Shown here: piece after piece, positions 187-22,798 of the stretch | How positions within the stretch are numbered: position 1 is the first letter of the stretch | Layout of the letters: every line of letters starts with the position of its first letter | From: Bacteroidales bacterium | Lineage (GTDB): Bacteria; Bacteroidota; Bacteroidia; Bacteroidales; Bacteroidaceae | DNA length: 57,335 bases | Assembly (NCBI GenBank): GCA_022772475.1 | Contig: JALEZQ010000059.1 | Coordinates: forward strand, 1-57,335 | Direction: 5' to 3' | Program-made: the position numbers and the translations under genes | Notes under the pieces: model-generated | What the model was told of the DNA's origin: nothing | Databases searched by the model: none | Seen by the model: only the letters and a program-made list of their open reading frames with translations

Positions 187-303
187 CTCCCCTTCCTCCA
201 CCGTTAAATATCCCTAAACTTTCCGCCCGAAAAACGGGCGCTGATCGAAAACTCTTGCGTAAAACGTTAGGCGCGCGCTGTGAGTGCAACAGTCCTAAAA
301 GGA

Positions 304-393
304 GGGTGTGTCAAAATGAAGATGGCTGAGCGGCGAGGCCGCTAAGAGGTGCCGCTCCGCAAAATCCCCGCTTGTGAGCATTTGGATACACCC
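304..393. repeat. MITE-like 90-bp element with imperfect terminal inverted repeats
   Basis: GGGTGTGTCAAAATG (304-318) is matched at 13 of 15 positions by the reverse complement of CATTTGGATACACCC (379-393). An inner hairpin pairs GAGCGGC (328-334) with GCCGCTC (351-357). The left end recurs in reverse orientation at 13313-13338, and a looser version lies at 19589-19608. No transposase gene is present. The family is unknown to me. Confidence 0.5.
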
Positions 394-468
394 TTGCCAC
401 CCCGCAAAACTTTTACCAGACAGCAATGATTTTTTTTGTGATTCCGAAAAAATCGGACTGTGCCGCCC

Positions 469-476
469 TACCTTTG
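469..476 (+). promoter_or_regulatory. Putative -7 element upstream of the P5-like gene
   Basis: TACCTTTG matches the TAnnTTTG core exactly. There is no TTTG at the expected 19-22 nt upstream; the nearest is 30 nt away. The P5-like gene starts 171 nt downstream. Confidence 0.4.
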
Positions 477-647
477 CATCGTTGTCGATAACAAACAGCC
501 ACCTCGCCATTCCGGGACCCCGGCGCAAGGTCCTGACGAGGGGAGATGAGGTTGGCGGCGTGTGCCGGCGAATGAGGCCAAACACAGTGAGTACACCGAC
601 CGCCGAAAATACATGTACAACTTTTTTATTTACACAAAACAAACCGT

Positions 648-1061
648 ATGGAAACGCTCAATCTTGGTCAGCAAAACCGCAATCCGCTCAACATCCGCTA
701 CAACGCCCGCAACCGTTGGCGGGGGCTGCACCCCACTACGCCCAACGTCCGTGGCTTCTGCAAATTCATCAGCGTGGCGCATGGCTATCGCGCCGCCGTC
801 GTCCTGATGAAAAACTATATCCGCCACTACGGCGCCGACACGCCGGCGAAAATCATTGCCCGCTGGGCGCCGCCAAGCGAGAACAACACGCGCTACTATA
901 TCGCTGCCGTCTGCGGGCGGAGCCGGCTGGACCCCAACGAGACCATCCGCATTGACGGGCCGCAGATAGGCCGCCTGATAGCCGCGATGGCGCGCCAGGA
1001 GACGGGAATGACCATCCAGCCCGAAGCCGTGGACGAACTGCGCCGACAGTTTGGCGTGTAG
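648..1061 (+). CDS. Phage-type structural protein P5-like protein
   Basis: 137 aa, soluble, no signal peptide. It resembles the small Bacteroides and Prevotella proteins usually annotated as structural protein P5: an N-terminal NPLNIRYN motif (residues 13-20) with a following W-R-G, a central GYRAA segment, and a WAPPSENNT segment near residue 80 followed by YYI. In phages, proteins of this kind are virion or lysis-associated; in Bacteroidales chromosomes they are common as domesticated or remnant genes next to DUF4248 genes, as here. No other phage gene is nearby, so an active prophage is not indicated. The start at ATG 648 is the only one that keeps the whole conserved N-terminus. Function in this cell is unknown. 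Confidence 0.65.
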   Translation: METLNLGQQNRNPLNIRYNARNRWRGLHPTTPNVRGFCKFISVAHGYRAAVVLMKNYIRHYGADTPAKIIARWAPPSENNTRYYIAAVCGRSRLDPNETIRIDGPQIGRLIAAMARQETGMTIQPEAVDELRRQFGV

Positions 1062-1177
1062 CCCCGCCCTTAGGCGAGCGCCGCGCAAGGGAATGAGGCG
1101 CATGGGAAACAGGCCCATGGGGAAAGGAGGCCCATGGGGAATGAGGCTAATTCTTCTTTGTCAATACTATAAAAACT

Positions 1178-1495
1178 ATGTTTATCGTTATGTTTACGTT
1201 TATCCATCCTACTTGTATGTCCAACCTGCCGCGTCGTCGCCGCTGTCCACGCCGTCCGCGCCATCCGCGCCATCCGCGCCATCCGTCGCCCATAGAGAAA
1301 TACGGCATGTTGCGCCGTGATGTCGCCATACAGTGCTTTGAGGGCAGTACGCCCGCAGTGGCGGTGGCCCGCCTGCGCCGCTGGATGCGCAGCGACCCGG
1401 AGATGTGGAACGAGCTGCAGAGCGCGGGCTACCGCCCCTACAGCCGGCGCTTTACGCCGGAACAGGTCAGCGTGCTGCGCCGCTATCTGCTATGA
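1178..1495 (+). CDS. DUF4248 family protein
   Basis: Up to 105 aa. The last 65 residues carry the DUF4248 pattern: an IEKYG segment, ALxxLRRW-like spacing (ARLRRWM), then GYRPYSRRFTPEQVSVLRRYL at the end. Family function is unknown; members are small, abundant in Bacteroidales and often sit beside P5-like or N-acetylmuramidase-like phage-derived genes, as here. The start is uncertain: ATG 1307 would cut into the conserved IEKYG part, so ATG 1178 or ATG 1217 is preferred. The N-terminal extension is low-complexity Arg/Pro/His encoded by 9-bp CGCCATCCG repeats (about 1256-1290), which may be non-native expansion. It is convergent with ispG, which ends 39 nt away. Confidence 0.6.
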   Translation: MFIVMFTFIHPTCMSNLPRRRRCPRRPRHPRHPRHPSPIEKYGMLRRDVAIQCFEGSTPAVAVARLRRWMRSDPEMWNELQSAGYRPYSRRFTPEQVSVLRRYLL

Positions 1496-1534
1496 GGCGG
1501 CAGCGCAACAAAGAAAAAGTGGCGTTTCGTGGCG

Positions 1535-3415
1535 TTATGCCTTGGCATCAGCCTCCGCCTTCGCGCGGTCCGCCTCAATGAGGGCCAGCAGATGGTCCAC
1601 CGCCTCTTCGGCGGGCAGGTTTTTCTCCACGCACACCTTGCCGCGGTAGAGGCTGATCTTGCCGCGGGCGGCACCGACGTAGCCGTAGTCGGCATCGGCC
1701 ATCTCGCCGGGGCCATTGACGATGCAGCCCATGATGGCAATCTTCAGACCGGTGAGGTGGCTCGTGGCGGCCTTGACGCGGGCAATGGTGCCCTGGAGGT
1801 CGTAGAGCGTACGGCCGCAGCCCGGACAACTGATATACTCCGTCTTGACGGTGCGCAGACGGGCGGCCTGAAGGATGGCGAAGGCGGTGTCGCACGCGAT
1901 GTTGTTGCTCAGCGCCTTCTTGCCCTTCGGCGCGGAGGTGAGCAGAGCCAGGCCGTCACAGAGACCGTCAAACAGCAGGGCGCCCATGTCGGCGGCAGCC
2001 TGCAGTTGGAACTGCTCGCGGTCGGCAGGGGCCGCCTGATAAAGACTATTCAGGATGACGGGCGCAGGGATGTGCTCGCGCCACAGTTCGTGGACGATGG
2101 CGCGCAGGTCGCCCGTGATGTTGCGATTGACCGGCGTGGCGATGACCACCATCTCCGGATGGGCGCGCAGGCAGGCTTTCACCTCGTCGTTGAGGGTAAG
2201 GTATTGCAGCAGCAGGAATTTCAGCGGAGCCTGACACATGCCCACGAGGTGGAGGTTTGACGTGTGGAACATGGGATAGGTGTGGGGCAGGCCGCGATAG
2301 TGGTCTGCGCTGACAATCCACTCGGGTTCGCCCTCGGCGGGCTTACCCTTGGGCATGTCGGGGAAGATGAGGTAGTCGGGCTGCACGGCGGTGGTGGGCT
2401 TGACGCCGTCGGCACACATTGCCACCACCACGGGGGCCGCATTGCCGCCGATGTTGTGCACGCGGCAGGTGGGGCGGCGGCGCGGGTTGCAGTAGTCGAA
2501 CTCGGGCGCCTGAGTGGCGGGAATCATGGGGTGGCCGCCGCGGGTGCGCATGACGTACTCGGCCAGACGGTAGGCCACGGGGAGTTCGGCTTCGGGCTCT
2601 TCGCTCAGCGACACGCGCAGGGTGTCGCCGATGCCGTCGCAGAGCAGGGCGCCGATGCCCACGGCGCTCTTGATACGGCCGTCTTCGCCCTCGCCGGCCT
2701 CGGTGACGCCGAGGTGCAGGGGGTAGTCCATCTTCTCGCGCTCCATGGCGCGGCACAGCAGGCGCACCGAGCGTACCATCACTGCGGTGTTGGAGGCCTT
2801 GATGGAGACTACGACGTCGGCAAACTGTTCCTTTTGGCATACGCGGAGAAACTCCATGCAGCTCTCGACGATGCCCTCGGGCGTATCGCCGTAGCGGCAC
2901 ATGATGCGGTCGGACAGCGAACCGTGGTTGACGCCGATGCGCAGCGCCGTATGGTGCTCGCGGCAGATGGCCAGCAACTTCTTGAAGCGCTCCTCAAGAC
3001 GTTGCAGTTCGGCGGCATACTCTTCGTCGGTATATTCCAGGTGCTTAAACTGGCGCGCCGGGTCAACGTAGTTGCCCGGGTTGATGCGCACCTTATCCAC
3101 GATGGTGGCGGCGACGTCGGCTACGGCGGGGTTGAAGTGGACGTCGGCCACTAAGGGTCCGTTGTAGCCGCGCCGGCGCAGGCCCTCCTGAATGGGGCGC
3201 AGGGCCTCCGCCTCACGAGTGCCCTGCGTGGTGAGGCGCACATAGTCGGCGCCGGCGTCGAAGATGCGGGCCGCCTGGGCAATGCAGCCTTCGACATCGG
3301 TCGTGGCGCAGGTCGTCATGCTCTGCAAGCGCAGGGGCTCGTCGCCACCCAGCGGGCGCGAGCCTACATTGACGCGGTGGGAACGGCGGGGGCAGAAATT
3401 GAAGAGGTCAATCAT
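1535..3415 (-). CDS. ispG: 4-hydroxy-3-methylbut-2-enyl diphosphate synthase (flavodoxin), long form
   Basis: 626 aa. Catalyses the reductive ring opening of MEcPP to HMBPP, the penultimate step of the MEP isoprenoid pathway, with a [4Fe-4S] cluster. The protein starts with a TIM-barrel half (residues about 5-290, with RINPGNY and IGVNHGSLS segments), followed by the extra middle domain that distinguishes the 600+ residue form of Bacteroidota, Chlamydiae and plants from the roughly 370-residue proteobacterial form. Cluster ligands are visible in SCPGCGRT (about residues 526-533) and GCIVNGPGE (about 560-568). The start ATG overlaps the purE stop codon as TGATG, implying translational coupling at the end of an rpoN-pap2-purE-ispG transcript. 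Confidence 0.95.
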   Translation of the reverse strand: MIDLFNFCPRRSHRVNVGSRPLGGDEPLRLQSMTTCATTDVEGCIAQAARIFDAGADYVRLTTQGTREAEALRPIQEGLRRRGYNGPLVADVHFNPAVADVAATIVDKVRINPGNYVDPARQFKHLEYTDEEYAAELQRLEERFKKLLAICREHHTALRIGVNHGSLSDRIMCRYGDTPEGIVESCMEFLRVCQKEQFADVVVSIKASNTAVMVRSVRLLCRAMEREKMDYPLHLGVTEAGEGEDGRIKSAVGIGALLCDGIGDTLRVSLSEEPEAELPVAYRLAEYVMRTRGGHPMIPATQAPEFDYCNPRRRPTCRVHNIGGNAAPVVVAMCADGVKPTTAVQPDYLIFPDMPKGKPAEGEPEWIVSADHYRGLPHTYPMFHTSNLHLVGMCQAPLKFLLLQYLTLNDEVKACLRAHPEMVVIATPVNRNITGDLRAIVHELWREHIPAPVILNSLYQAAPADREQFQLQAAADMGALLFDGLCDGLALLTSAPKGKKALSNNIACDTAFAILQAARLRTVKTEYISCPGCGRTLYDLQGTIARVKAATSHLTGLKIAIMGCIVNGPGEMADADYGYVGAARGKISLYRGKVCVEKNLPAEEAVDHLLALIEADRAKAEADAKA

Positions 3416-3921
3416 CAGTTGGTCTTGTGAGCATATTGTACGGCAGCCAGGTCGGCGTTGGCCTTGACTATTTTATTTTTCAGTCCACTCTTGTAGTCGC
3501 TCAGGCGCTGCGCCAGGGCCTCATCGCTGAGGGCCAGCATCTGTGCGGCGAGGATGGCGGCGTTGAGGGCACCGTTGACACCCGTCGTAGCCACGGGGAT
3601 GCCCGGCGGCATCTGTACGATGGAGAGCAGGGCGTCCAGACCGTCGAGCATACCCTTGATGGGCACGCCGATGACGGGCAGCGGCGTCGAGGCCGCGATG
3701 ACACCCGGCAGGGCTGCCGCCATGCCTGCGCCGGCGATGATGACCTTGACGCCGCGCGGGGCAGCCTCGCGGGCAAACTGCTCCACCTCGGCCGGCGTGC
3801 GGTGGGCCGACAGGGCGTTCATCTCAAAGAATATGCCCATTTCATCGAGAAATTGGGCCGCTTTTTCCATGACGGGCAGGTCGCTGGTGCTGCCCATGAT
3901 AATGCTTACTTGCGGAGTCAT
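3415..3921 (-). CDS. purE: N5-carboxyaminoimidazole ribonucleotide mutase
   Basis: 168 aa, the normal length for class I PurE. It converts N5-CAIR to CAIR in purine synthesis. The N-terminal phosphate-binding GSTSDLPVM (residues 10-18), SAHRTP (about 39-44) with the catalytic His, and GAGMAAALPGV are all present. The stop overlaps the ispG start by one base, and the upstream PAP2-like gene ends 36 nt away, so it is the third gene of the rpoN operon. No purK lies adjacent. Confidence 0.95.
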   Translation of the reverse strand: MTPQVSIIMGSTSDLPVMEKAAQFLDEMGIFFEMNALSAHRTPAEVEQFAREAAPRGVKVIIAGAGMAAALPGVIAASTPLPVIGVPIKGMLDGLDALLSIVQMPPGIPVATTGVNGALNAAILAAQMLALSDEALAQRLSDYKSGLKNKIVKANADLAAVQYAHKTN

Positions 3922-3957
3922 AATGGTTGGGAGAATGTGAGGGGTATGAGGGAATGT

Positions 3958-4575
3958 TTACAGATTCGTGATGGTGAAGAAGGCGCTGAGCCAGCCGAGG
4001 ATGACGCCCGCGAAGAGTTCGCCGAGCGTGTGCTGGCGCAGTATCAAGCGTGCGGTGCACACCAGGCCCGACAGCAGTACCGACAGGCAGAACATGGCCG
4101 TCAGATCGACGTTGAGCAGGAAGGAGAAGGCCATGATGGCGCCAATGAGGCCGCCCGAGGCCGCGGCATGCGTGCTGACCTTAAACAGCGGGTTGACCAG
4201 GGCGCAGGCCACCTGTACCGCCAGTGCGCCCGCCACGATGGACAGCATGAAGCGCGGCATACGCAGTTGGCCCATGATGTAAAACAGGGCCGCGTAGGAC
4301 GTGATAGACAGCACATAGGGCACGACGCGGCGCTCGCGGCGCGACAGTTCGCGGCGCGTCCAGCCATTGACCTTGCGGTAGGTGAAGATGCCGATGCGCG
4401 GCAGGAGCACGGTGAAGATGTATATCATCAGCAGCACCTGGGCGCTGAAGGACCACGGCATGTAGCGCAGGTAACTGAAGCATATCAGCACCGCCACCGC
4501 CAGTACGGGCAGGTAGAACGGCGAGAAGATGATGCTGGTGACCTGAGCGGCGATGAGGAGGAAACGGTTGGTCAT
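3958..4575 (-). CDS. PAP2-like integral membrane phosphatase family protein
   Basis: 205 aa with about six membrane segments. It carries degenerate type 2 phosphatidic acid phosphatase motifs: RxxRxxPY-like RRERRVVPY (about residues 79-87), STHAAASGG replacing PSGH (about 134-142), and RLILRQHTLGELFAG replacing SRxxxxxHxxxD (about 177-191), in which the final Asp is Glu. The substrate is unknown; undecaprenyl- or lipid-phosphate is the family theme. Placement between rpoN and purE in one apparent operon gives no direct clue, although the polyprenyl link to ispG is suggestive only. Confidence 0.65.
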   Translation of the reverse strand: MTNRFLLIAAQVTSIIFSPFYLPVLAVAVLICFSYLRYMPWSFSAQVLLMIYIFTVLLPRIGIFTYRKVNGWTRRELSRRERRVVPYVLSITSYAALFYIMGQLRMPRFMLSIVAGALAVQVACALVNPLFKVSTHAAASGGLIGAIMAFSFLLNVDLTAMFCLSVLLSGLVCTARLILRQHTLGELFAGVILGWLSAFFTITNL

Positions 4576-4642
4576 GGGCGTTGGGCAGGGGGGCGTAGAG
4601 GATGTGGGGACGCTTTAACTCGCGCTTTCGTTCGCGGCGCTT

Positions 4643-6142
4643 TTATTCGCGGCGCAGGCGGGCTACGGGGACGCCCATTTGTTCGCGATACTTGGCCACG
4701 GTGCGGCGGGCGATGTCGAGCCCTTGGGCCTGCAGGGCGGTGGCGATGGCCTCGTCGGCGAGGGGGTTGTGGCGGTCTTCGCCCTCGATGAGGCGGGCGA
4801 TGGCCGTCTTGACCTCGCGGCTGGAGAGCTCGTCGCCCGAGCGTGTGGTGATGCGGTTGAAGAAGAACTGCTTGAGGGGGTAGATGCCGTAGGCTGTCTC
4901 GACGTATTTGTCCGTCACCACGCGCGATACCGTCGAGATGTCCACGCCGGCCCGCGAGGCCACCTCGCGCAGCGTCAGGGGGACGAGGCGCGTATCGTCG
5001 TCATCGCTGACGAAGAAGTCGCGCTGCAGGTCGGCGATGGCCCGCATGACCATGAGCAGCGTGGCGCGGCGGCGGGCTACCAGACTGATGAACGTCTGTG
5101 CCGCCTCCACCTTTTGCCGGGCATAGACGTAGGCCTCCTGCTCGGCCCGCGAGGCTTTGTCGCGGTGGCGGGCGTAGGTGTTGAGGCTGTCGCGAAAGGC
5201 CGGACTGATGCGCAGTTCGGGCATGTCGCCCTGATTCAGACTGACGTCGGGCAGGCCGTCGCTGCCGATGCTGACGAAGAAGTCCGGGACGATGGCGGCG
5301 GCGTCGGCCACGGTGTCGTTGCCCAGGCTGCCGCCGGGGCGCGGGTTGAGGTGCGTCAGCAGGTGGCGCACGCCGTCCATCGCCGCGTCGTCCAGATTGA
5401 AGCGCTGGCGCAGCGCGTTCCAGTCGTGCGAGGCAAACGAGGTGAAGCCCTCCGTCAGCACGCGGCGGGCCGCCTCCTTGTAGGGCGAGCGGAGGTCGGG
5501 GTCGTCGAGCTGCAGCAGCAGGCATTCGCGCAGCGAGCGGGCCCCGATGCCCCGCGGCTCGAACGTCTGGAGGATGTGCAGCGCGCCCTCCAGTTCGTCG
5601 CGGTCCGTATAGACGTTGTGATAGACCGCCAGTTCGTCCGCCAGCGTGTCGAGGTCCTTGCGCAGCAGTCCGTCGTCATCGAGCGAGCCGATGAGATATT
5701 CCAGCAGTTGGCGCTGGTGCTCGTCCACGTTGTGCTCGCCAATCTGCGCCTGCAGGTCGTCCAAGGCACTTGTGGTGCCGGCGAAGCGCTGCTCGCGCTG
5801 TTCGCGCTGTTCGTCGGCCCGGTCGCGCAGGTAGGCCGGCACCTCGTCCTCGTTCATATAGTCGCTGAGCGAGTCGCGCAGTTCGCCGTTGGGCACCTCG
5901 TCCCATGCCGTGGCGTCGTCGCCGGCACCGTCGTCGTAGCCGTCGTCCGTGGTATCGCCGCCGTCGTTGTCGTGCGGCAGGTCGCTGCCCTCTTCGAGCG
6001 CGGCGTTGTCGAGCATCTCGTTTCGTATTCGCTCCGCCATGCTCGTCAGCGGCAGTTGCACGAGCGACGAGAGGGCCACCTGCAGCGTCGAGAGTTGCTG
6101 CACCTGGCTCTGCTTCAGTTCTTGTTGTAATTTCTGCGCCAT
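4643..6142 (-). CDS. rpoN: RNA polymerase sigma-54 factor
   Basis: 499 aa, full length. Region I is the Gln/Leu-rich N-terminus (residues 1-50), which inhibits isomerisation and contacts AAA+ activators. Region II is acidic (about 55-95, rich in D/E/G). Region III holds the core-binding part and the helix-turn-helix (LREVASRAGVDISTVSRVV, about 408-426). The C-terminal RpoN box ARRTVAKYRE lies at about 477-486 and reads the -24 element. It is the first gene of a minus-strand operon and has a TTTG-N19-TACCTTTG promoter at 6211-6241, a housekeeping-type promoter. No sigma-54 activator is encoded in this window. Confidence 0.96.
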   Translation of the reverse strand: MAQKLQQELKQSQVQQLSTLQVALSSLVQLPLTSMAERIRNEMLDNAALEEGSDLPHDNDGGDTTDDGYDDGAGDDATAWDEVPNGELRDSLSDYMNEDEVPAYLRDRADEQREQREQRFAGTTSALDDLQAQIGEHNVDEHQRQLLEYLIGSLDDDGLLRKDLDTLADELAVYHNVYTDRDELEGALHILQTFEPRGIGARSLRECLLLQLDDPDLRSPYKEAARRVLTEGFTSFASHDWNALRQRFNLDDAAMDGVRHLLTHLNPRPGGSLGNDTVADAAAIVPDFFVSIGSDGLPDVSLNQGDMPELRISPAFRDSLNTYARHRDKASRAEQEAYVYARQKVEAAQTFISLVARRRATLLMVMRAIADLQRDFFVSDDDDTRLVPLTLREVASRAGVDISTVSRVVTDKYVETAYGIYPLKQFFFNRITTRSGDELSSREVKTAIARLIEGEDRHNPLADEAIATALQAQGLDIARRTVAKYREQMGVPVARLRRE

Positions 6143-19004: not shown

Positions 19005-19293
19005 CCAAGCGCTGTGGCCGCACTGCGCCGCCACGCCCCTACCCCGCAAGACGGGCGCGAGCAGAAGTGTGCAATGCTGCACTTAACATTCGTTAACCGC
19101 GAGAATGCCCGCGAAACCCACCGCCTCTCCCCGCCGCCGGAAATAACGCCGGCATGGCGCGTTTGGTTTTGACAGAACATCGCACAAAACAGCAGCAGCC
19201 CCCTCCCTTCCGTTAATTCTACTAAAAAATCGGCATTTTCACCCCGGAAACGGTCCTCAGCGACCGGCCGAAGAGATAGCGATTTGCGCATCA

Positions 19294-19337
19294 CTGTAAG
19301 CGTTACAGGATTTTCTGTAACGCTTACAGTTTTTTTT
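19294..19337 (+). terminator. Twin 15-bp palindromes followed by eight T
   Basis: CTGTAAGCGTTACAG (19294-19308) and CTGTAACGCTTACAG (19315-19329) are perfect reverse complements, and each is itself a palindrome apart from its middle base. Together they make a 15-bp stem with a 6-nt loop followed by T(8), as in an intrinsic terminator. Their centres are 21 bp apart, which also fits a tandem operator on one DNA face. Confidence 0.75.
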
Positions 19338-19726: not shown

Positions 19727-19734
19727 TATTTTTG
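19727..19734 (+). promoter_or_regulatory. -7 element upstream of the methyltransferase cassette
   Basis: TATTTTTG fits TAnnTTTG and lies 88 nt before the methyltransferase start. No good -33 is seen. Confidence 0.4.
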
Positions 19735-19822
19735 CAAATGAAGATTGCTCTTGAGCCATAGTCTGCGTTTGTTTAGGATAGATGCTCAAGAACAGACCTG
19801 TTTCCACATTTATAACGAAGAT

Positions 19823-20818
19823 ATGGCCAACAAGAATCTGAATAAGGCGAAGGAGGCTAAAAAGGATGAGTTTTACACTCAACTTGAAGACATCAACAAC
19901 GAGTTGAGGCATTACCGCGAGCATTTCCGCGGCAAGACCGTGCTGTGCAATTGTGATGACCCGCGCGTCAGCAATTTCTTCACCTATTTTGCCTACAACT
20001 TCGAACTTCTCGGTCTGAAGAAGCTCATCACCACATGCTACAAGAACCAAGACGTCGATTTGTTTTCGCAGGGTCAATGCGAGAAAGCGGTATATCTTGT
20101 TTACGAAGGCGATAAGAATGGCAACCATATCCCTGATGCGGAAGAAATTGGGGTGTTGCCCCTAAAGGGTGATGGCGACTTCCGGAGCCGCGAGTGCATC
20201 GAGCTTCTGAAGGAGGCCGACATCGTCGTCACCAACCCGCCGTTCTCTCTGTTTAGGGAGTATGTGGCGCAGCTGATGGCGTATGACAAGAAGTTTTTGA
20301 TTATTGGTCACCAGAATGCTATCAAGTACAAGGAGATATTTCCTCTCATACAGCAGAACAAGATATGGCTGGGCTACGGCTTTAAGGGAGGGGCCGCCCA
20401 TTTTATCTCACATTATGAGGACAAGGCAACGGCCGGTGACCATCGTGAGGGCATGATACGTGTCTCGGGCGTGACTTGGTTTACTAACTTAGAAATCAAA
20501 AAGCGCCATGAAGACCTTATCTTGTATAAGAAGTACACACCTGAGGAATTTCCTAAATACATCAATTATGATGCTATTGAGGTTGGAAAGACTGCCGACA
20601 TTCCATGCGATTATATGGGTCTTATGGGAGTTCCTATAACTTTCTTGGATAAATATAATCCTGATCAATTTGAGATAATTGGCAAGAGTTCTGATTTAGG
20701 AGATATGACTCACATCAGACAAATGGACAATGCTCAAGGTGGAGGCCCTTGCTTTTATATCATGAAGAATGATACTCCAACAAGAATGTATGAACGCATT
20801 GCTATCCGTCGAAAATAA
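19823..20818 (+). CDS. EcoRI-family adenine-specific DNA methyltransferase
   Basis: 331 aa from ATG 19823 (MANKNLNKAKEAKKDEFYTQ); the frame extends 26 codons upstream without support. It transfers a methyl group from SAM to adenine N6. The N-terminal FYTQLEDINNELRHY, a VLCNCDDPRVSNF segment (residues about 40-52), the catalytic motif NPPFSLFREY (about 140-149) and KKFLIIGHQNAIKYKEIFPLI agree with M.EcoRI-type enzymes, whose usual length is about 325 aa. EcoRI methylase marks GAATTC; whether this homologue does is inference. No EcoRI-type endonuclease is present. The 3' third is clearly AT-richer than the flanking chromosome. First gene of a three-gene cassette; dinD starts 9 nt downstream. 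Confidence 0.9.
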   Translation: MANKNLNKAKEAKKDEFYTQLEDINNELRHYREHFRGKTVLCNCDDPRVSNFFTYFAYNFELLGLKKLITTCYKNQDVDLFSQGQCEKAVYLVYEGDKNGNHIPDAEEIGVLPLKGDGDFRSRECIELLKEADIVVTNPPFSLFREYVAQLMAYDKKFLIIGHQNAIKYKEIFPLIQQNKIWLGYGFKGGAAHFISHYEDKATAGDHREGMIRVSGVTWFTNLEIKKRHEDLILYKKYTPEEFPKYINYDAIEVGKTADIPCDYMGLMGVPITFLDKYNPDQFEIIGKSSDLGDMTHIRQMDNAQGGGPCFYIMKNDTPTRMYERIAIRRK

Positions 20819-20827
20819 TAGACTGTC

Positions 20828-21685
20828 ATGAAATCCGAAGAGATCATCGCGTTGTTCCGTCAGTTTGAATCTATCGCGAACGAATACGAAGGCGTGGAGT
20901 GCTGGAGCGCGCGCGAGTTGTCCAACCTGTTGGGGTATGCCCAATGGCGCAACTTTGAGAATATCATAGAAAAGGCCAAAGCCGCATGTGAGAATGCAGG
21001 GCAAGAAACGGGCTATCATTTTGCTGACGTCAGCAAAATGATAAGTTTGGCTAAAGGTGCTCAGCGTGAGGTGAATGACTATATGCTGACGCGCTATGCC
21101 TGCTACCTTATTGCGCAAAATGGCGACCCACGGAAGCCACAAGTGGCCTTTGCACAAAACTATTTTGCGGTGCAGACACGCCGGGCCGAACTGGTGCAGA
21201 AACGTATATTGGACCATGAGCGCGTCGTTGCACGAGCTAAGTTGGCCGAAACGGAAAGCCGCTTGTCGGGCATCCTGTATGAACGTGGCGTGGACAGCAA
21301 GGGGTTCGGCATCATCCGCTCCAAAGGCGACAAGGCTTTGTTTCACTTAGACACCGCATTGTTGAAACGCAAATTGGGAGCGCCGGACAGTAGGCCCTTG
21401 GCAGACTTCCTCCCGACGATTAGCATCAAGGCAAAAGACTTCGCCGCAGAGATGACTTCTGTCAATGTGCAGCAGAAAGATTTGCATGGGCAGGAGCAAA
21501 TCACCCGCGAACATGTGGACAACAATACGGCGGTACGGAATATGCTGTTGCAACGCGGCATCGTTCCTGAACTATTGCCGCCGGGAGAGGACATCAAGAA
21601 GGTGGAACGCCGCTTGAAGTCGGAAGAAAAGACATTGGCCAAGGGGTCAGGCGCAAAAACAAAGTCGAAGAAAGGAAAAGAATAG
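20828..21685 (+). CDS. dinD: DNA damage-inducible protein D
   Basis: 285 aa, normal length. The N-terminal half is a Bro-N/KilA-like fold: [24 protein letters not shown] (residues about 24-47), then [38 protein letters not shown] (about 68-105), the DinD hallmark. The C-terminal half ([19 protein letters not shown], and [19 protein letters not shown]) matches the rest of the family; the tail is Lys-rich. E. coli DinD disassembles RecA filaments, and homologues are often mobile or sit next to restriction genes. It lies between a methyltransferase and a DUF262-HNH nuclease with 9- and 3-nt gaps, so the three are surely co-transcribed. No LexA gene is seen here. Confidence 0.9.
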
Positions 21686-21688
21686 GAT

Positions 21689-22798
21689 ATGCAGATAGAA
21701 CTGAAGTCGATAGCCATACGCGACTTGATAGATGGCTACAGCAACGATGCCGATACCGGCGTCAAAGGTTATGGCGGAAAGTTGGACATCCGGCCGCCCT
21801 ATCAACGCGAGTTCAGATATGACTTGAAGCAGCAGCAGGCTGTTGTGGAAACCATCCTGAAGGGATTTCCGCTCAACATCATGTATTGGAATGCCTGCGA
21901 AGATGGCCGCTATGAAATGATTGACGGGCAGCAGCGCACGCTGTCCATCTGTGAGTACTTCTGCCACGATTTCCACATCGTGGACCCGGACCGTGGCACG
22001 CTGTACTTCGCGTCACTGAGCGATGAGGAGAAGGACCGGTTTTTGAACTACGAGCTCACGGTCTATTTCTGTAAAGGGACGGACAAAGAGCGGTTAGACT
22101 GGTTCAGGGTCATCAACATCGCCGGAGAGAAATTGCTCGACCAAGAGCTGCTGAACGCCGTATATACCGGGCCGTTTGTGACGGACGCCCGCCGGTATTT
22201 CTCCAAAACAGGCTGCCCGGCCTTCAAACTCGGTGCGGATTTCCTGAACGGTACAGCCATTGAGCAGGCTTATCTTTCCACCATCCTGAAATGGGCGGCC
22301 CGCCACGACGGCATAGCCAAAGTGGACGACTATATGGCGCAGCATCAGTTCGACCCCAATGCCAACAAACTGTGGGCTTACTTTGTGGCCATCATCACAT
22401 GGATTCGCTCCACCTTCCCCACATACCGCCGCGAGATGAAAGGCCTGGATTGGGGCGCTATGTACGATGAGTTTGGCGAGGGCGTTTACGATACGGAGGC
22501 GCTGGAGAAGCAGATTCGCGACCTCATGGAAGACGACGAGATTATGAAGAAGTCGGGCATCTACCGTTATGTGCTGAGCGGCGACTTGCGCGACCTCAGT
22601 TTCCGCGCCTTCGACAAAAAGCAGAAGCGCCAAGCCTATGAGCGGCAAAAGGGCATTTGCGTCCATTGCCACAAGCACTTCGAAATAGAAGAAATGGAGG
22701 CAGACCACATTAAGCCATGGAAAGAAGGCGGTACTACCGTGGCAGAAAACTGCCAAATGCTTTGCAGAAATTGCAACCGAATAAAAGGCAGCAAGTGA
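21689..22798 (+). CDS. DUF262 and HNH endonuclease domain protein
   Basis: 369 aa. The N-terminal DUF262 (ParB-like, as in GmrS and related antiviral proteins) spans about residues 5-230 with PPYQREFRYD (about 35-44), a GFPLNIMYW strand and the signature IDGQQRT (about 78-84). The C-terminal zinc-bound HNH domain (about 315-369) has CVHCHKHFE, ADHIKPWKEGG with the catalytic His, and CRNCNRIKG. It differs from GmrSD, whose second domain is DUF1524; here the nuclease is a McrA-like HNH fused on one chain. By family, DUF262 binds or hydrolyses NTP and controls the nuclease. With the adjacent methylase it is the likely effector of a self/non-self system; the target is unknown. Confidence 0.88.
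   Translation: MQIELKSIAIRDLIDGYSNDADTGVKGYGGKLDIRPPYQREFRYDLKQQQAVVETILKGFPLNIMYWNACEDGRYEMIDGQQRTLSICEYFCHDFHIVDPDRGTLYFASLSDEEKDRFLNYELTVYFCKGTDKERLDWFRVINIAGEKLLDQELLNAVYTGPFVTDARRYFSKTGCPAFKLGADFLNGTAIEQAYLSTILKWAARHDGIAKVDDYMAQHQFDPNANKLWAYFVAIITWIRSTFPTYRREMKGLDWGAMYDEFGEGVYDTEALEKQIRDLMEDDEIMKKSGIYRYVLSGDLRDLSFRAFDKKQKRQAYERQKGICVHCHKHFEIEEMEADHIKPWKEGGTTVAENCQMLCRNCNRIKGSK

Follow-up and report, generated by a model that had tools for sequence, protein, structure and literature searches.

Positions 19,727 to 22,798 of a 57,335 nucleotide (nt) stretch from a Bacteroidales bacterium (contig JALEZQ010000059.1; the whole stretch is referred to as the window) encode an EcoRI-family DNA methylase (M), the DNA damage-inducible protein D (DinD, or D) and a nuclease with a DUF262 and an HNH domain (R). 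M and R are likely to form a restriction-modification system in which M holds the specificity for both modification and restriction, R is constant and poor in specificity, and DinD is a later guest. The original prediction, made from this sequence alone, proposed an undescribed three-gene defence system: what it observed was confirmed, while its interpretation stands only for the two-gene core. The pattern of specificity in M and R could not be seen from a single sequence.

Genome contigs of 84,980 species were scanned with an alignment of 12 R sequences, R being picked by two conserved peptides: 587 stretches matched, 581 of which encode relatives. The best 80 of the 581 related loci form the main sample, to which counts out of 80 refer. 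Two further samples, of 19 loci in close relatives and 29 loci in the order, bring the total to 128 loci, most of them metagenome-assembled. Full-length M sequences came from 67 of the 80 loci (L025 has none; in 12 M is partial, split or short), and 38 of the 48 loci from the two samples of relatives were usable (5 stretches do not include M or R, 5 loci are split or partial). This gives 105 M-R pairs, reduced to 103 by removal of two near-duplicates; for the count of segment classes ten plasmid loci were added, for a total of 115. What computation shows is which genes are present and how they pair, that two segments of M are hypervariable and assort independently while R is constant, the contrast with R.EcoRI, and the insertion of DinD.

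A same-strand M lies immediately 5' of R in 79 of the 80 loci, the remaining one (L025) being cut by the contig end; the median gap is 5 nt, and in 58 of the 79 loci it does not exceed 27 nt. In the order-wide sample, where contig ends cut some loci, each of the 29 has an M next to R. Among the 19 close relatives, five stretches are without M or R, four of them because of a contig end. The fifth, L009, was considered as an orphan R and discarded as such: M is present further upstream, behind open reading frames (ORFs) which, named by eye, resemble a four-helix bundle protein and a transposase. Among the record titles of the main sample are Bacteroidales, Clostridia, Alphaproteobacteria, Methylobacter, Rothia, Fibrobacter and candidate phyla; annotations place the pair on plasmids, too. 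A methylase without R also occurs (L140, with no nuclease annotated beside it). By their sequences, M and R are thus a widespread two-gene restriction-modification pair, and the partnership of methylase and DUF262-HNH nuclease assumed by the original prediction is borne out by their adjacency in nearly all loci examined. GmrSD and BrxU, which are DUF262 nucleases, are reported to cut modified DNA without any methylase (PMC4619093, PMC10952713), and R might similarly be a Type IV-like enzyme acting on modified phage DNA, next to a merely unrelated methylase; so constant a neighbour, at so short a distance and in several phyla, makes this explanation very improbable.

Some pairs are found in unusual settings. 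A human-gut record deposited as a phage ('Bacteriophage sp.', MT835503.1) contains one (L023, positions 584 to 2823). On a plasmid of Chryseobacterium taklimakanense (L022, positions 3059 to 5083) an unannotated methylase is matched in two frames, and the DUF262-HNH gene looks intact. On a plasmid of Variovorax sp. SRS16 (L204, positions 2550 to 5273) two tandem EcoRI-family methylases, differing in both of the hypervariable segments described below, precede one DUF262-HNH gene: a single nuclease may here serve two methylases.

The adenine-specific M of the window (positions 19,823 to 20,818, forward strand) is 331 amino acids long. Alignment of the 67 full-length M sequences reveals two hypervariable segments, set between conserved blocks, which are candidates for reading the target. 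HV1, at about residues 187–217 of the window protein (positions 20,381 to 20,473, forward strand), has a ten-residue mean identity of 0.28–0.45; HV2, at about residues 288–321 (positions 20,684 to 20,785, forward strand), of 0.11–0.29, with boundaries that, for both, depend on the alignment. Residues 81–110 of M are moderately variable (0.43–0.51). R (positions 21,689 to 22,798, forward strand; 369 amino acids) keeps a mean identity of at least 0.44 in all ten-residue stretches, except for residues 261–270, at 0.30.

The methylase segments vary even where R hardly does. In the 9 pairs of loci with 97–100% identical R, HV1 falls below 0.45 in 7 and HV2 in 8. In L050, L052, L057 and L058, R is 98–99% identical, five of the pairs differing at 4–6 positions; in all six pairs, HV1 identity is at most 0.30 and HV2 identity at most 0.15. 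The two segments also assort independently of each other: L050 and L098 have the same HV1 (1.00) and a different HV2 (0.08), as have L035 and L038 (0.80 and 0.10), and over the 103 pairs the partial correlation between HV1 and HV2 is 0.04. Combining 22 HV1 classes with 56 HV2 classes, the 115 loci feature 88 combinations. HV1 of the window belongs to the commonest class (16 out of 70); for its HV2 no match is close, the best, at 0.42, being L030. No 20-residue window of R, including 261–280, co-varies with either HV1 or HV2 (partial correlations from -0.10 to 0.09). Since the segments vary beside near-identical nucleases and no R window follows them, R itself is probably without sequence specificity and depends on M for its targets. 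Chimeric metagenome-assembled genomes (MAGs) were considered as the source of the mismatch between M and R: this may apply at single loci; named-strain genomes and complete plasmids show a similar mismatch, at lower R identity. In the named-strain genomes L030 and L043, for example, identity is 0.84 for R, 0.21 for HV1 and 0.22 for HV2.

The true EcoRI system has a methylase of the same family as M, and its endonuclease, R.EcoRI, recognises its site unaided. Six R.EcoRI loci were compared, from E. coli, Klebsiella pneumoniae, K. michiganensis, Leuconostoc, Staphylococcus rostri and Rhodococcus, with R 60–92% identical; L173, where the methylase is of another kind, was omitted. In all of the 15 pairs HV1 identity is at least 0.61 and HV2 identity at least 0.72, each above that of the methylase core. 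With a DUF262-HNH partner, at an R identity of 60–93%, both segments are shared, at 0.55 or above, in only 26 of 2437 pairs; the neighbour with the nearest R shares both segments in 5 of 113 loci, and in 5 of 38 when this R is at least 88% identical. Segments frozen in the company of R.EcoRI and free in that of the DUF262-HNH nuclease point to HV1 and HV2 as target readers, unconstrained by the DUF262-HNH partner. The two systems, besides the methylase family, have in common that both M.EcoRI segments recur beside a DUF262-HNH gene in L054 (0.81 and 0.94), L082 having the EcoRI HV2 only (0.89); they differ in the nuclease, in the freedom of the segments and in gene order, which is M-R here and R-M for EcoRI (L138). 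A plasmid of Rhodococcus pyridinivorans (L172, positions 2501 to 5825) carries a true EcoRI-type R with its M and, annotated 0.8 kb downstream, the gene for a further DUF262 protein.

One pair of this kind had already come to attention. In 2022 the adjacent genes on plasmid pDSM14862_g of Sulfitobacter indolifex were suggested to be a possibly novel restriction-modification system (PMC9025767); they are the same two genes, without DinD, and the available text of that report describes neither segment exchange nor a constant nuclease. According to the same source, PacBio sequencing found GAATTC unmethylated and a motif, GGCATC, carrying N6-methyladenine (m6A) without an assigned enzyme. R of this pair (L195) is 0.68 identical to that of L054, while HV1 and HV2 identities are 0.25 and 0.14. 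The pair itself is, therefore, not new, and "undescribed" was too strong a word for it, all the more as PADLOC has full-length models for both M and R; what is new is the specificity pattern. In the portions of the literature consulted, outside subscription papers, preprints and REBASE, no description was found of segment exchange in EcoRI-family methylases with a constant DUF262-HNH partner.

Several points weigh against a specificity held by M, and some of them favour an ordinary Type II system, in which R would read its own sequence and a few of its residues, rather than a visible block, would vary along with the segments of M. The PADLOC library models label both genes as Type II; residues 261–270 of R are as variable as HV1, even if they do not co-vary with HV1 or HV2; both segments are shared in 1 of the 9 pairs with R identity of 0.97 or above, and in 6 of the 50 at 0.88 or above. 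A change of specificity through a few R residues is conceivable. Only 9 R pairs, several of them from one MAG group, are above 97%, named-strain pairs reaching 84%, and locus pairs are not independent, so that pair counts are descriptive only. Finally, the role of HV1 and HV2 as target readers is deduced from conservation, and GGCATC is only a candidate product of the S. indolifex methylase. Against the ordinary Type II explanation stand the absence of any R window co-varying with HV1 or HV2, the unrelated methylase segments next to R proteins with 4–6 differences, and the freezing of the same segments by a real Type II partner: taken together, they leave it unlikely. Like Type II systems, the family has adjacent methylase and nuclease genes; the comparison argues against an R reading a fixed sequence matched to the methylase. 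In Type II pairs the same site is reported to be recognised differently by endonuclease and methylase (PMC4081073).

M is modelled with a predicted local distance difference test score (pLDDT) of 82.5, with low confidence in HV1, and its fold has no match in the PDB at E <= 0.001 (best 9.2e-3). A sequence search of solved structures returned no match for M or D, and for R only matches to the HNH region. In the R alignment of 55 sequences (A3, which omits L089, having an internal stop, and several other rows) the invariant residues are DGQQR 79–83, D339, H340, N354 and N363. The R model has a pLDDT of 89.5; BrxU is its only PDB match at E <= 0.001 (8.5e-4), with a TM-score of just 0.23, followed, at E above 0.01, by ParB and HNH proteins. 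In the Pfam scan R matched only GmrSD_N and HNH-type models, and no helicase or translocase.

Under a methylase-guided scheme, M would recognise its target by the exchangeable HV1 and HV2, which would set the recognition sequence, and methylate adenine on host DNA; on reaching a target without the modification, M, alone or in complex with R, would license R to act there as a nuclease. The DUF262 domain of GmrSD, BrxU and SspE is described as handling nucleoside triphosphates (NTPs) and controlling the nuclease (PMC10952713), and in R, too, cutting by the HNH domain probably depends on NTP binding or hydrolysis by this ParB-like domain. The recognition sequence could then change by a swap of methylase segments, the nuclease remaining untouched. 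DinD, where present, may hinder the RecA-dependent rescue of cut DNA, or be a second-line effector. A different scheme is suggested by the position of R in the DUF262 nuclease group with SspE and BrxU (PMC10952713): R might read the methylation state of DNA, rather than its sequence, and nick or cut wrongly marked DNA, M merely writing the mark. This would equally make R indifferent to the M segments, but R would somehow have to know that unmarked DNA ought to be marked, and a complex would explain the adjacency of M and R equally well or better; mark sensing is rated as improbable, slightly more so than an ordinary Type II system.

The methylase-guided scheme resembles other restriction systems in some of its aspects. 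As in Type III systems (Mod/Res), specificity apparently resides entirely in a methylase beside a constant nuclease, even if target reading by the segments is itself deduced; Res, however, is a helicase-nuclease, whereas R has no helicase match and the methylase is of the EcoRI family. Two independently assorting target segments, and accessory genes nested in the operon, recall Type I systems with two target recognition domains in HsdS; here, instead, the segments are inside the methylase, the loci viewed by eye showed no HsdS gene within or next to the M-R pair, and R has no translocase domain. Shuffling of segments in Type I S and Type III Mod proteins is known (PMC3983042). With GmrSD, BrxU and SspE (DUF262 and DUF1524), R shares DUF262 with the DGQQR motif and HNH-type catalytic residues, but its C-terminus matches the HNH model PF01844, not DUF1524, and a methylase gene lies alongside. 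Sequence comparison suggests that a Type I/III logic is probably assembled here from parts labelled as Type II, an NTPase-HNH nuclease replacing the helicase. The balance tilts mildly towards a separate architecture, where a one-chain methylase with two independently exchangeable segments guides a constant DUF262 NTPase-HNH nuclease, and where the junction between the two genes accommodates second-line defence genes, DinD and Fic among them.

DinD (positions 20,828 to 21,685 in the window, forward strand; 285 amino acids) is located between M and R, or directly 5' of R, in 5 of the 128 loci (L024, L025, L082, L143, L158), a contig end hiding the junction in 4 others. One of the five, L024, is a near-identical copy of the window (99% over 3.3 kb). 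The triad is found also in L206 (identity of 77% for M, 89% for D, 84% for R) and L207. A tree of 32 DinD proteins indicates at least two origins in the junction, one for the window, L025 and L143, the other for L082 and L158. In the latter two, a relic of the R 5' end is found between the M stop and dinD (51 nt, score 79, in L158; 37 nt, score 54, in L082; shuffle maxima 27 and 34), indicating that DinD there entered an older M-R operon; of 18 cargo loci tested, these are the only ones above shuffles, L024 showing no relic. R proteins from pairs without D (L002, L026, L141, L142) are 85–87% identical to the window R, and those from D-bearing L143 (84%) and L025 (85%) are no closer. By these comparisons DinD is not a fixed component: it was inserted later between M and R, and is optional. 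A dedicated three-gene system, with DinD essential, had in its favour the tight spacing in the window, the recurrence of the triad in L206 and L207 and the repeated entry of DinD into a slot that may thus be favoured; 123 of the 128 loci, including the 4 with hidden junction, are without DinD, and R from L141 and L142 (87%) is as near to the window R as that of D-bearing loci. The three genes rarely co-occur, so that the three-gene idea fails as a general rule, at a residual probability that is minimal, and the M-R core stands.

DinD is one of several defence-like genes in the junction, which hosts others as well: a Fic-family gene in four Paludibacteraceae loci (scanned in L052, with near-identical ORFs in L057, L058 and L063; about positions 4021–4950), AAA_21/AAA_15 with a sub-threshold DUF4276 match in L038, PIN and RelE in L028, and several unknowns elsewhere. 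DinD, in turn, was matched in 65 of 395 genomes; 29 other DinD loci were fetched, and neighbours were scanned at 15, partly chosen by eye. Restriction-type genes lie beside DinD in 7 of the 15 (L114, L119, L121, L127, L128, L129, L134): the families are N6_Mtase, Methylase_S, N6_N4_Mtase, ResIII (a broad model) and ISP-coupler proteins. In L119 (positions 234 to 3843) the layout is Type III-like, with an N6_N4 methylase gene on one side of DinD and a ResIII gene on the other. A DinD-HsdS fusion has been published in an active Type I system (PMC4996451), and E. coli DinD inhibits RecA filaments, as reported in a citing sentence (PMC10602874).

In the window, ORF and translation checks show three intact genes in the order M, D, R, on the same strand and separated by 9 and 3 nt, as originally noted. 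For M, the ATG at 19823, giving 331 amino acids, is preferred over starts at 19727 or 19745. M is a full-length member of the Pfam EcoRI_methylase family (PF13651; E 3.5e-139, profile 1–345 of 345) and matches the full-length PADLOC model MTase_II (E 1.4e-117); its NPPF motif is invariant in 64 out of 64 sequences. D scores 350.7 bits with the NCBIfam equivalog NF008573, above the cut-off of 242, and matches the PADLOC candidate model PDC-S13 (E 2.4e-117). R matches GmrSD_N (PF03235, E 1.4e-17), HNH (PF01844, E 9.9e-14) and, over the full-length model, PADLOC REase_II (E 2.9e-128). GC content is 0.452 for M, 0.519 for D and 0.533 for R, against 0.619 for the window: the difference from the surroundings, already noticed, is real and consistent with acquisition. 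The left flank, described as repeat-rich, does contain repeats, but these are weak: six two-copy direct matches of 10–17 nt and four inverted pairs. One of the latter, at 19293–19330, between M and an RlpA-like gene (named by eye), is perfect over 16 nt and leads into a T run; its predicted hairpin is terminator-like. Also in agreement with the original prediction, visual inspection of the ORF list for the surroundings of the operon recognised no EcoRI-type endonuclease, the neighbours not having been searched with models. The rpsO region is matched in 38 of 41 same-genus genomes; no clean empty site was found in the stretches of 19 relatives, all of which contain S15 and none RlpA, OmpH, the WYL-type regulator, M, D or R.

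In classical Type II systems specificity is hard to change, since a change in one of two unrelated proteins has to be accompanied by a change in the other. The M-R family seems to be free of this constraint, without resorting to a helicase. If this is true, the system would be compact, with short, swappable segments of the methylase determining where it cuts, and how restriction systems acquire new specificities would become directly testable. The 88 segment combinations suggest that many recognition sequences are still unread, and Type II labels in present defence catalogues may cover genes of a different logic.

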